A DNA stretch of 45,741 nucleotides, taken from positions 1 to 45,741 of the forward strand of contig CAMBQV010000004.1 in the NCBI GenBank assembly GCA_945870145.1, read 5' to 3'. The first letter of the stretch is position 1; each line of letters begins with the position of its first letter. The stretch is from Akkermansia muciniphila. GTDB taxonomy: Bacteria > Verrucomicrobiota > Kiritimatiellia > RFP12 > UBA1067. Positions 39,229 through 41,622 of this stretch are shown here, in pieces. The notes beneath the pieces were generated by a model that was given only the letters and a program-made list of their open reading frames with translations, ran no database searches and was not told where the DNA came from. The translations under genes were made by a program, and so were the position numbers.

Positions 39229-40065
39229 ATGAAGAATATGATGTTACTTGCAGCAAGCGTGATGACCGGTTGTCTTTGCGTACAGGCGCAGGATAAACTG
39301 ACGCTTGATGGTTCAACCACAGTAGGACCAATTGCAAAGGCCTTTGCAGAGTATCACATGAGGCAGAATCCGGGTACCACGATCACGGTCAGTGAATCGG
39401 GGAGCGGAAATGGCGCCAAGGCACTCTTGAATGGCACGTGTGATATCGCCACCCTTTCTCGCGATCTAAAAGAGACCGAGCGAAAGGCAATGAAGGAGAA
39501 GGGAATCACCCCTGTCCAGCACGTCGTGGCCTTTGATGCTCTGCCCCTCATGGTGCATCCCTCGAACAAAGTCAAGGGCCTGACAGTCGCTCAGGTTAGG
39601 GATATCTTTACAGGCAAGATCAAAAACTGGAAGGATGTCGGCGGTTCGGATTTAGCCATTGTGCTCGTCAGCCGTGACACCAACAGTGGCACGTACGAGT
39701 CCTTTAAAGATCTGGTTCTGGCAAAGGATGATAGGATTTCAGAGGGCGCGGAGTATGTCGGTAGCAACGGAGCGATCCGCCAGCGCGTCCAAGTCACCAA
39801 GGGTGCTATTGGTTATGCTGGGCTCGGGTTTGTCGACCGTTCGGTCAAGGCTCTCGAGATCAATGGCATCGTCCCTTGCGTGGAGACCGTTCGTAGCAAG
39901 ACGTATCCTCTCGCTCGTCCACTTTTCATGTTCACGAATGGTGAACCCAAGGCCGAGTCGCTCAGCGCTCGCTTCCTGGGACTCGCCCTCACGGACAAGG
40001 GACAGGAGATTATTGAGGAGATCGGCTTCATTCCTGTTGAGGTGAAGAAGACCGAGAAGAAGTAA
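39229..40065 (+). CDS. pstS: phosphate ABC transporter substrate-binding protein PstS
   Basis: A 278-residue periplasmic phosphate-binding protein. A signal peptide (MKNMMLLAASVMTGCLCVQA) precedes LTLDGSTTVGPIAKAFAEYH and SESGSGNGAKALLNGTCDIATLSR, whose Ser, Gly and Asp/Arg residues line the phosphate site. SRDTNSGTYESFK and GAIGYAGLGFV are also typical. The ATG at 39229 has AAAGGA 7 nt upstream; a GTG at 39172 overlaps the promoter. A TGC inside the signal could be a lipobox, so anchoring is possible. It is cut off from pstCAB by a terminator and a 615-nt repeat spacer. Confidence 0.93.
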   Translation: MKNMMLLAASVMTGCLCVQAQDKLTLDGSTTVGPIAKAFAEYHMRQNPGTTITVSESGSGNGAKALLNGTCDIATLSRDLKETERKAMKEKGITPVQHVVAFDALPLMVHPSNKVKGLTVAQVRDIFTGKIKNWKDVGGSDLAIVLVSRDTNSGTYESFKDLVLAKDDRISEGAEYVGSNGAIRQRVQVTKGAIGYAGLGFVDRSVKALEINGIVPCVETVRSKTYPLARPLFMFTNGEPKAESLSARFLGLALTDKGQEIIEEIGFIPVEVKKTEKK

Positions 40066-40072
40066 TCAGTGA

Positions 40073-40131
40073 TCCGCCTTCGCCAAGGCTTCCACCTTCG
40101 CGAATACGGCTACGGTGGACAAGACGGCGGA
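40073..40131. repeat. nested hairpin containing dispersed 24-nt repeat, copy 2
   Basis: TCCGCC (40073) pairs with GGCGGA (40126) and TCCACC (40091) with GGTGGA (40114). Bases 40095-40118 are an inverted copy (22/24) of 10005-10028. Confidence 0.7.
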
Positions 40132-40149
40132 CAAGTCAGTAATCAGTTG

Positions 40150-40188
40150 AAAGAGGGGTGGGATTAATTTCCCATCCCTCTTTTTTTT
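40150..40188 (+). terminator. strong intrinsic terminator after pstS
   Basis: AAAGAGGGGTGGGA (40150-40163) pairs with TCCCATCCCTCTTT (40170-40183), with one G-U pair and a 6-nt loop, followed by T to 40188. It explains high pstS versus lower pstCAB expression. Confidence 0.88.
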
Positions 40189-40193
40189 GTTAC

Positions 40194-40336
40194 GGCGGCG
40201 CGCTTGTCTATAACTTGGCCAAAATGTCTCACACAAAGCCACAAAGGGCACAAAGAAATTAAAAGATAAAACATGTTTCTCCTCTTTGTGGACTTAGTGG
40301 CTTCGTGTGAGAAAGTTATTCATTCGTTTATTCCCG
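40194..40336. repeat. intergenic repeat module, copy 1
   Basis: The header GGCGGCG...TATAACTTG (40194-40217) is followed by arms 40227-40255 and 40284-40312, which are inverted repeats at 25 of 29 positions and contain CACAAAG units at 40232, 40240 and 40249. The tail is AAAGTTATTCATTCG... (40312-40336). The whole forms a large stem-loop. Confidence 0.8.
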
Positions 40337-40343
40337 CTCCCCG

Positions 40344-40532
40344 GGCGGCGGGCTTGCCTATAACTTGATTTGATTTAACCGCAAAGAACACAAAGATCTC
40401 AAAGATCAACTTCTAAATTCTTTGTTTCGCAATCAGATGTGCCCCTCTTTTCTCTGTGTTCTCTGCGTTCCTTGCGGTAAAAAATCTTCTCTGCGCCTCT
40501 GGGGGATAAAGTTACTCGTTCGTTTATTTCCG
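40344..40532. repeat. intergenic repeat module, copy 2
   Basis: The header (40344-40367) matches copy 1 at 22/24. The arms are 40374-40404 (9-nt period CGCAAAGAA, CACAAAGAT, CTCAAAGAT) and 40451-40481 (roughly the reverse complement). The tail (40508-40532) matches copy 1 at 22/25. Loop and arm sequences differ from copy 1 while header and tail are kept. Confidence 0.8.
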
Positions 40533-40540
40533 GGGTATTA

Positions 40541-40575
40541 ACTGCCAACTGCTACTGCCGACTGCTACTGCCCCG
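40541..40575. repeat. 13-nt repeat of ACTGCC type
   Basis: ACTGCCAACTGCT (40541), ACTGCCGACTGCT (40554) and ACTGCCC (40567) follow in register, the same motif as at 18136-18169. Confidence 0.75.
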
Positions 40576-40595
40576 CCCCGCTCGGTGGGCTTGCT

Positions 40596-40650
40596 TCTAA
40601 CACAATCCAAACAAAACACTCATACGTGATTAACAGGGAAGAACTATGAT
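40596..40650 (+). promoter_or_regulatory. putative Pho box and promoter of pstCAB
   Basis: Four 7-mers in an 11-nt period, TCTAACA (40596), CCAAACA (40607), ACTCATA (40618) and ATTAACA (40629), are followed after 9 nt by TATGAT (40645-40650). The last box and the 9-nt spacing are identical to those at pstS. Confidence 0.62.
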
Positions 40651-40680: not shown

Positions 40681-41622
40681 ATGAAACAGACTGAACAGTT
40701 CATTCTGAGTGAGGCGGACGTAAGACGGAGGAAATTTTTCACTGGCTTGGGCCAGACATTTCTCTTCGCAATTACCTCTGTCGCCGCCTTGGCGGTGCTT
40801 GCAATTATCTTCTTTATTGCACGGGATGCTTTGCCCTTCTTCTCAGGGTCGCGAACCTGGGCGTTCTTCACCTCAAAGGAGTGGTATCCGACGTCAGCTA
40901 CTCCTAAATTTGGTGCGGCTGCGATCTTTGCAGGTAGTTTTATTGTCACGCTCACGGCTGTTTTATTTGCAGTTCCTCCTGGCATCCTCGCCGCAGTTTG
41001 TCTGAGCGACCTGCTTCCCTTCAATGTCCGTCAAGTGGTTAAACCTGTGGTCGAGATTCTTGCCGCGATTCCCTCGGTTGTCTATGGATTTTTTGCGCTG
41101 GTCGTGTTAGCTCCCTTTCTGCAGGACACCTTGGGAGCCGCCAGTGGCGTCAATGCGTTGAATGCCTCCATCATTCTGGCGATCATGGCACTCCCGACGA
41201 TTGTGAGTGTCTCGGAGGATGCTCTGCAGGCTGCGGGACGTGAGCTACGTGAAGGCAGTTACGCCCTGGGCGCGACGCGTGCGGAGACCCTCCTGAAGGT
41301 GGTCATCCCCTCAGCCATGAGCGGGATCTTCTCTGCGGTTTTACTCGGCATCATGCGGGCACTGGGGGAGACTATGGTGGTTTGGATGGCCTCTGGTAAC
41401 GCGGCGCAGATCCCTTCGCCATTCTACAATCTGCTTCAGCCCATCCGGACCTTGACCGCGACGATTGCAGGCGATATGGGCGAGGCCGACCAGATGACGG
41501 GTTCAGCCCATTACCATGTTCTTTTTGCCATGGGACTCAGCCTGCTAATTTTTAGTTTTCTCTGCAACCTCGCAGGGGAATGGGTGGTCAATCGTCAACG
41601 CAAAAGGCTGAGGGGAGCATAA
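40681..41622 (+). CDS. pstC: phosphate ABC transporter permease PstC
   Basis: A 313-residue inner-membrane permease with about six transmembrane helices. Typical PstC segments are KPVVEILAAIPSVVYGFFAL, the EAA-like loop REGSYALGATRAETLLKVVIP and GIMRALGETMVVWMASGNA. It forms the channel of the high-affinity phosphate importer with PstA. AAGGAAGAG precedes the ATG. Three nucleotides separate its stop from pstA. Confidence 0.94.
   Translation: MKQTEQFILSEADVRRRKFFTGLGQTFLFAITSVAALAVLAIIFFIARDALPFFSGSRTWAFFTSKEWYPTSATPKFGAAAIFAGSFIVTLTAVLFAVPPGILAAVCLSDLLPFNVRQVVKPVVEILAAIPSVVYGFFALVVLAPFLQDTLGAASGVNALNASIILAIMALPTIVSVSEDALQAAGRELREGSYALGATRAETLLKVVIPSAMSGIFSAVLLGIMRALGETMVVWMASGNAAQIPSPFYNLLQPIRTLTATIAGDMGEADQMTGSAHYHVLFAMGLSLLIFSFLCNLAGEWVVNRQRKRLRGA

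Follow-up and report, generated by a model that had tools for sequence, protein, structure and literature searches.

An insert between pstS and pstC suggests a bacterial repeat family that spreads, then swaps its contents

The DNA analysed here, a stretch of 45,741 nucleotides (the window), is C4, one of the 162 contigs in a draft genome from Kiritimatiellae (G000; 2.4 Mb), and in it an insert lies between pstS and pstC. In our preferred reading, to which we give a probability of about 0.62, this insert holds two cassettes in tandem, both belonging to a modular interspersed repeat that is lineage-specific, non-autonomous and of BOX/MITE-like kind, and whose bodies are exchanged. Two observations carry it: modules spread by copying into intergenic gaps, and at some loci the body was replaced in a kept frame. 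They point to a family of bacterial repeats in which spreading is followed by a swap of contents.

Results

The initial annotation had described two copies of a composite module, each with a conserved header, inverted arms around a variable loop and a conserved tail. Its measurements hold. The headers (40194-40217 and 40344-40367) are identical at 22 of 24 nt and the tails starting at 40312 and 40508 at 22 of 25 nt, while the inverted arms span 35 nt with 83% complementarity in the first copy (40222-40256/40283-40317) and 32 nt with 78% in the second (40374-40405/40451-40482). The third partial header, GGTGGGCTTGCTTCTAAC, is also present and starts at 40584. The two-module pattern is not due to chance: the window has two GGGCTTGCCTATAACTT matches with at most three mismatches, the mean in shuffles being 0.05. 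The division into header, body and tail had to be redrawn, as a tail and the header following it form one core (40312-40367), and what had been taken for the two ends of one element are mainly core halves standing between bodies, with one half missing from many copies.

The order of a module is an end A (CTTGYCTATAACTT), a variable hairpin body made of short repeated words, which lies between the TATAACTT end and the next core, and a core leading into the next A (Table 1). The core consists of AAGTTAYTCNTTCGTTTATTCCCG, a GC hairpin or ACTGCC tract, and GGCGGGCTTG; in other genomic copies its halves read AAAGTTAYTCNTTCGTTTATTCCCG and GGGCGGCGGGCTTGCCTATAACTT, separated by a short GC hairpin or, in many of them, by a ACTGCCAACTGCTACTGCC tract (slot 2). 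In 14 of 45 modules the letters directly behind the core agree with CCTATAACTTC at 8 or more of its 11 positions (0-1 modules at slid positions), which indicates that many modules have A at both ends and that tandem modules share it. The frame is incomplete in several modules of full score. The bodies fall into many unrelated families, whose words are CACAAAG, CGCAGAGG/TTCGTG, AATTAAACGAATTAAG, ATTGCCTTATTGCC, GGAATGTTGGAATATTGG, GAATTCAGAATGA, GTTGAACGTTGAG and ACAGGATTTACAGG. A covariance model, as proposed in the initial annotation, was left aside in favour of a tail profile and DNA searches, since bodies of different copies lack homology to one another.

Table 1. Features of the pstS-pstC interval (positions in the window)
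Feature	Position	Strand	Remarks
pstS-like phosphate-binding protein gene, left neighbour	39229..40065	+	PBP_like_2, E 1e-42
Intrinsic terminator-like hairpin and T8, between pstS and insert	40150..40189	+	14-bp stem, z -5.6
Header 1 of the initial annotation: right core half, ending in A1 (CTTGTCTATAACTT, 40203-40216)	40194..40217	+	
Recently copied unit: A1, body 1, core and A2	40203..40366	+	CTTGYCTATAACTT direct repeats bound all three genomic sites
Body 1, CAAAG-word hairpin, type A	40218..40311	+	base closed by TAACTT (A1) / AAGTTA (next core)
Core: left half AAAGTTATTCATTCGTTTATTCCCG (tail 1 of the initial annotation), small GC hairpin, right half GGGCGGCGGGCTTGCCTATAACTT (header 2)	40312..40367	+	
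Body 2, GCAAAG/CTCTGCG-word hairpin, type B, plus CTTCTCTGCGCCTCTGGGGGAT	40368..40507	+	matches elsewhere in own and sister genomes
Second core, left half (tail 2 of the initial annotation)	40508..40533	+	
Slot 2, ACTGCCAACTGCTACTGCCGACTGC tract within second core	40539..40573	+	slot-2 tract in many copies, not all
Second core, decayed right half with degenerate end A3 (third partial header)	40574..40602	+	weak profile match 40583-40601
pstC permease gene, right neighbour	40681..41622	+	BPD_transp_1, E 3e-16

Folded as single-stranded DNA and compared with dinucleotide shuffles, bodies 1 and 2 reach z values of -6.7 and -3.4; over 35 copies the mean for bodies is -3.9, and 24 of the 35 fall below -2. 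We also considered the core as one long palindrome and rejected it, its z value of -0.3 being no better than shuffles; RNAalifold gave a different small stem, so that our claim for the core is limited to a 4-bp inner stem with limited covariation. Among bodies of the TTGGAATATTGG type, those at L117, L201 and L213 (G000 C3, C107 and C17) carry a nested hairpin, GTGTGCAGGCGTCCTCGCCTGCACAAGTACGGGCGAGGACGCCCGTACACC, in their middle, and as whole bodies they reach z values down to -14. A separate GC hairpin repeat (TCCGCCTTCGC...GCGAATACGGCTACGGTGGAC) occupies 40071-40135, directly behind the pstS stop codon, and at many other loci its variants are found inside module bodies and slot 2.

The pst operon around the insert, which spans 40194-40602, also encodes a PhoB/PhoR-like pair and phoU. 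In two related genomes, G004 (L087) and G013 (L089), pstS and pstC are adjacent and no insert separates them, which indicates that the insert at this locus is derived and agrees with the earlier view that it splits the operon. An assembly chimera is unlikely, as relatives have the pstS-pstC adjacency too. The array lies behind the pstS terminator-like hairpin, in the less common of the two orientations.

All genome material consisted of draft metagenome bins, the sequence read covering about 1.9 Mb of the 2.4 Mb of G000 and a minor part of its sister genome G001. As the initial annotation had anticipated, the genome contains further copies: the insert region gave 52 blastn matches in its own genome, and the tail profile gave 46 matches at E<10 in the 1.9 Mb of G000 (1 in reversed sequence). 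These correspond to about 40 tail copies, mostly intergenic, and 33 of the 37 well-scoring copies lie outside open reading frames of at least 100 aa, though such frames make up 89% of the sequence. The expected co-occurrence of header and tail stood in part, the two being halves of one core; many copies are without one half, and across the genome there are more tails than full headers (46 matches to 20 at E<10). Between co-directional genes the modules are biased in orientation by 20 to 2, the two exceptions being the window's own. Many copies in the usual orientation have the core abutting the upstream stop codon, with A beside the Shine-Dalgarno sequence or ATG of the next gene.

Searching 41 genomes, namely G000 itself and others of its genus, family and order, gave matches in 22, the strongest in G001. 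Related cores occur in sister genera, and full cores were seen in G004, G013, G023 and G030. A search for the exact core pattern in 84,980 species returned Kiritimatiellae, contigs like those of G001 and one Limisphaerales match (L107); the latter lies in an apparent coding sequence and was taken as chance, and with it discounted the repeat family looks lineage-restricted. Plasmids and phages contained no similar DNA, and none of the viral contigs had the core. In sister genera, hairpin bodies of CACAAAG type occur in other flanking sequences and outside the module frame (L059 in G016, L061 in G010), so these bodies are more widespread than the frame. Another repeat family, TCCGTGTATTCACGGG, has many copies in G000 and G001, some of them as inverted pairs about 100 bp apart (for example G000 C1:167-182/282-297, and many places in G001).

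Modules spread by copying into intergenic gaps. The 165-nt unit at 40203-40366 recurs with 96-98% identity on C71 and C7 of G000 between differing flanks, and at all three sites the identity ends at CTTGYCTATAACTT on both sides. Presence and absence were also found between congeners: a module on G000 C7 faces a matching site of only 33 bp on G001 C85, and a 195-bp module on G001 C424 has a counterpart of only 32 bp on G000 C105. Target-site duplications, one of the signs that the initial annotation had looked to, were not found at these sites, and the flanks of these two presence/absence sites are too diverged to fix exact ends. In a further comparison, about 4 kb of G000 (C7:17481-21609, modules included) is replaced in G001 C466 (L230) by a short stretch that bears one module with a body type differing from that of G000. 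From this comparison, modules may also serve as recombination points for gene gain and loss.

In the comparison of G000 with its congener G001, the body was replaced at some sites while the frame was kept. At three orthologous intergenic sites the body comes from an unrelated family, and two more sites are partial cases. At L258/L199, slot 2 and the core side can be aligned while the bodies are CGCAGAGG...TTCGTG and GAGTTAAAAGTTTGAACGCTC; at L254/L143 the A end is retained with bodies AATTAAACGAATTAATC and ATTGCCTTATTGCG; and at L269/L178 both genomes have CAACGAAGTTATAGGTGTTTTATG and GCTTTGTTATAGG on either side of AATAAGGCAATAAGGC in one and GGAATGTTGGAATACTGG in the other. At L264/L189 and L256/L137 the body differs and the frame is partly left. 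Other sites keep their body. At L279/L136, L282/L225 and L285/L148, 438 of 452 columns are identical (96.9%; range 96-98%), with about 88% identity in the coding flanks (600 nt) of these sites, and the same body is also retained at L078/L214 and L266/L179. Since same-type paralogous modules within one genome are just 87-92% identical, simple homogenisation does not account for the conservation at orthologous sites; this conservation points to selection at the loci concerned, or to an exchange of recent date. The orthologous sites were located via module matches, and the proportions of exchanged, conserved and absent modules are therefore not unbiased rates.

Discussion

The initial annotation had left two possibilities for the insert, a small non-autonomous mobile element or a structured RNA. 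The first fits the dispersed copies, the presence and absence between congeners and the derived insertion at pst. The second may hold in some form, but its stronger form, a host-owned RNA element, we consider unlikely. In that form the modules would be structured devices of 3' or 5' untranslated regions (terminator, attenuator or processing hairpin) whose copies are immobile and only diverge. The 20:2 orientation bias, the many copies fitted between a stop codon and a Shine-Dalgarno sequence or ATG, the three sites where modules exceed their coding flanks in conservation, and the small core stem with limited covariation all speak for such a device. However, immobile copies do not agree with the presence and absence between congeners, with a near-identical unit at three unrelated loci or with unrelated bodies in one frame; the pst copy has the opposite orientation, and the Rfam scan gave sub-threshold chance matches, none above the gathering score of any family.

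As a non-autonomous repeat, the module would be moved by a protein encoded elsewhere, and here a gene tail deserves attention. Its product ends in ...INELELSSALKAV before the stop codon, and the gene tail itself ends in the module's own end sequence. The gene end (...AEHYERRMREKTLRTVRNLIKVHGINELELSSALKAV, stop) lies at two contig ends of G000, where the stop codon overlaps GAAGTTATAGGCAAG, which is end A of the opposite strand; next to the gene end come the recently copied module on C71 and another gene on C24. This gene may be a multi-copy autonomous partner. A more specific version, in which the modules descend from an autonomous element whose protein ends in ...YERRMREKTLRTVRNLIKVHGINELELSSALKAV and are its classical non-autonomous derivatives with the same terminus, appears to us quite unlikely. 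It is in line with the direct passage of the gene tail into GAAGTTATAGGCAAG in G000, and into related sequence in G004, where a matching tail with 69% DNA identity lies at a contig end, and in G184, where a degraded fragment is followed by GAAGTTATGGACGAG; tails at contig ends, in G000 as in G004, are what a multi-copy gene would give. But no full-length copy was found in 115 genomes of the family, and the searches gave no Pfam match for the G000 peptide and no NCBIfam, plasmid or phage match. In the PDB the gene-tail peptide had chance-level matches only, and its weak family matches at L252 and L253 were judged to be chance.

RAYT proteins were rejected as the mover. The initial annotation had looked to an adjacent REP-type transposase, but the module frame stands at the ends of none of the four Y1_Tnp loci in G000. 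Two regions with RAYT-like genes have features of their own. At L246 (G000 C133) a RAYT-like Y1-transposase gene has as its neighbour a truncated gene that resembles the reverse transcriptase of a group II intron, and between the two lies a duplication of about 60 bp. At L247 (G000 C95) a RAYT-like gene sits amid CCGGGAGCTGGAAGCTCCCGCCAC repeats, which also occur within its own reading frame; this is likely a REPtron that has a REP family to itself and no relation to the module.

Returning to the modular repeat, its body exchange probably proceeds in two steps, an insertion in tandem and then a loss between direct repeats. In this sense, a second module would enter beside a resident one by using A or a match to it, and recombination between the A/core stretches, now present twice, would then remove the resident. 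Two-cassette intermediates would be represented by the pst locus and by a site on C7 (L123:748-1111). The simplest alternative to this route is that independent insertions occur at one preferred site after a first module has been lost, and two such insertions would likewise leave a differing body in a similar place. Tandem units with one common site and direct-repeat ends, together with body exchange at conserved frames, also recall integrons, and the hairpins are closed by ends that contain AAC/GTT. A system of this kind, with A/core as the recombination sites of a dedicated tyrosine recombinase moving non-coding cassettes, is nevertheless very unlikely in our opinion. The integron attC core-site consensus is RYYYAAC...GTTRRRY, whereas the module has CTATAAC and GTTAYTC; moreover, the modules are dispersed singly instead of forming one platform array, and the cassettes contain no gene.

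A transcribed module hairpin that lies in the usual orientation, behind a stop codon and before a Shine-Dalgarno sequence, could have been co-opted to serve as an mRNA element; this would account for the loci with conserved modules. Any effect of modules on expression is proposed from orientation and conservation alone. A bolder version is a non-coding cassette system in which A and core act as exchange sites through which hairpin bodies of many unrelated families enter fixed intergenic addresses and replace one another, altering the mRNA-level control of neighbouring genes between sister species; we regard this as a rather doubtful proposal. Short-word palindromes sit between genes in many of the uncultured bacteria examined here, and the module family gives such palindromes an anatomy, a fixed frame with a variable body. 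The exchange of bodies at orthologous sites, with the frame kept, opens a vaguely defined class of intergenic repeats to testing, both for the enzyme that moves them and for an effect on operon expression.

Comparison with known systems

Extragenic palindromes mobilised by RAYT proteins, the REP/BIME elements of the GTAG superfamily, are known also from the PVC superphylum (PMC3733652). The module resembles them in being an extragenic palindrome in a genome that has Y1 transposase genes. REP/BIME elements have a GTAG tag at the hairpin foot and flank a RAYT gene, and the module does neither: by inspection, no GTAG tag or variant of it was found at the core or body hairpins of aligned copies. 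Resemblance to MITEs goes further. Most modules are below 250 bp and have no open reading frame, and they are short, non-coding, dispersed in many copies and present or absent between congeners, with paired ends at the hairpin base. Yet the TAACTT/AAGTTA pair lies at the base of the body, and the intact copied unit is bounded by direct repeats; the ends look more like direct than like terminal inverted repeats, no target-site duplication was seen at the two presence/absence sites with their diverged flanks, and the parent transposase is only a candidate.

Small dispersed repeats and short tandemly repeated repetitive sequences of cyanobacteria are, like the module, composite insertions made of short repeated words; to our knowledge, the module frame and the exchange of bodies have no counterpart among them. 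The closest system in organisation is the BOX element of Streptococcus, with the order boxA-boxB(n)-boxC; in S. suis, alternative ends frame the same middle modules (PMC3049150). Both are short intergenic composite repeats with fixed ends, a variable middle and strong folding, contain no gene and have proliferated in one lineage, a likeness of organisation. What varies in the middle of BOX is mainly how many related boxB copies it has, whereas that of the module belongs to several unrelated families exchanged at orthologous sites; BOX has also been reported to cause target-site duplications (PMC3049150), of which none was seen for the module. Claiming no descent from BOX or from any MITE family, we file the module under modular interspersed repeats.
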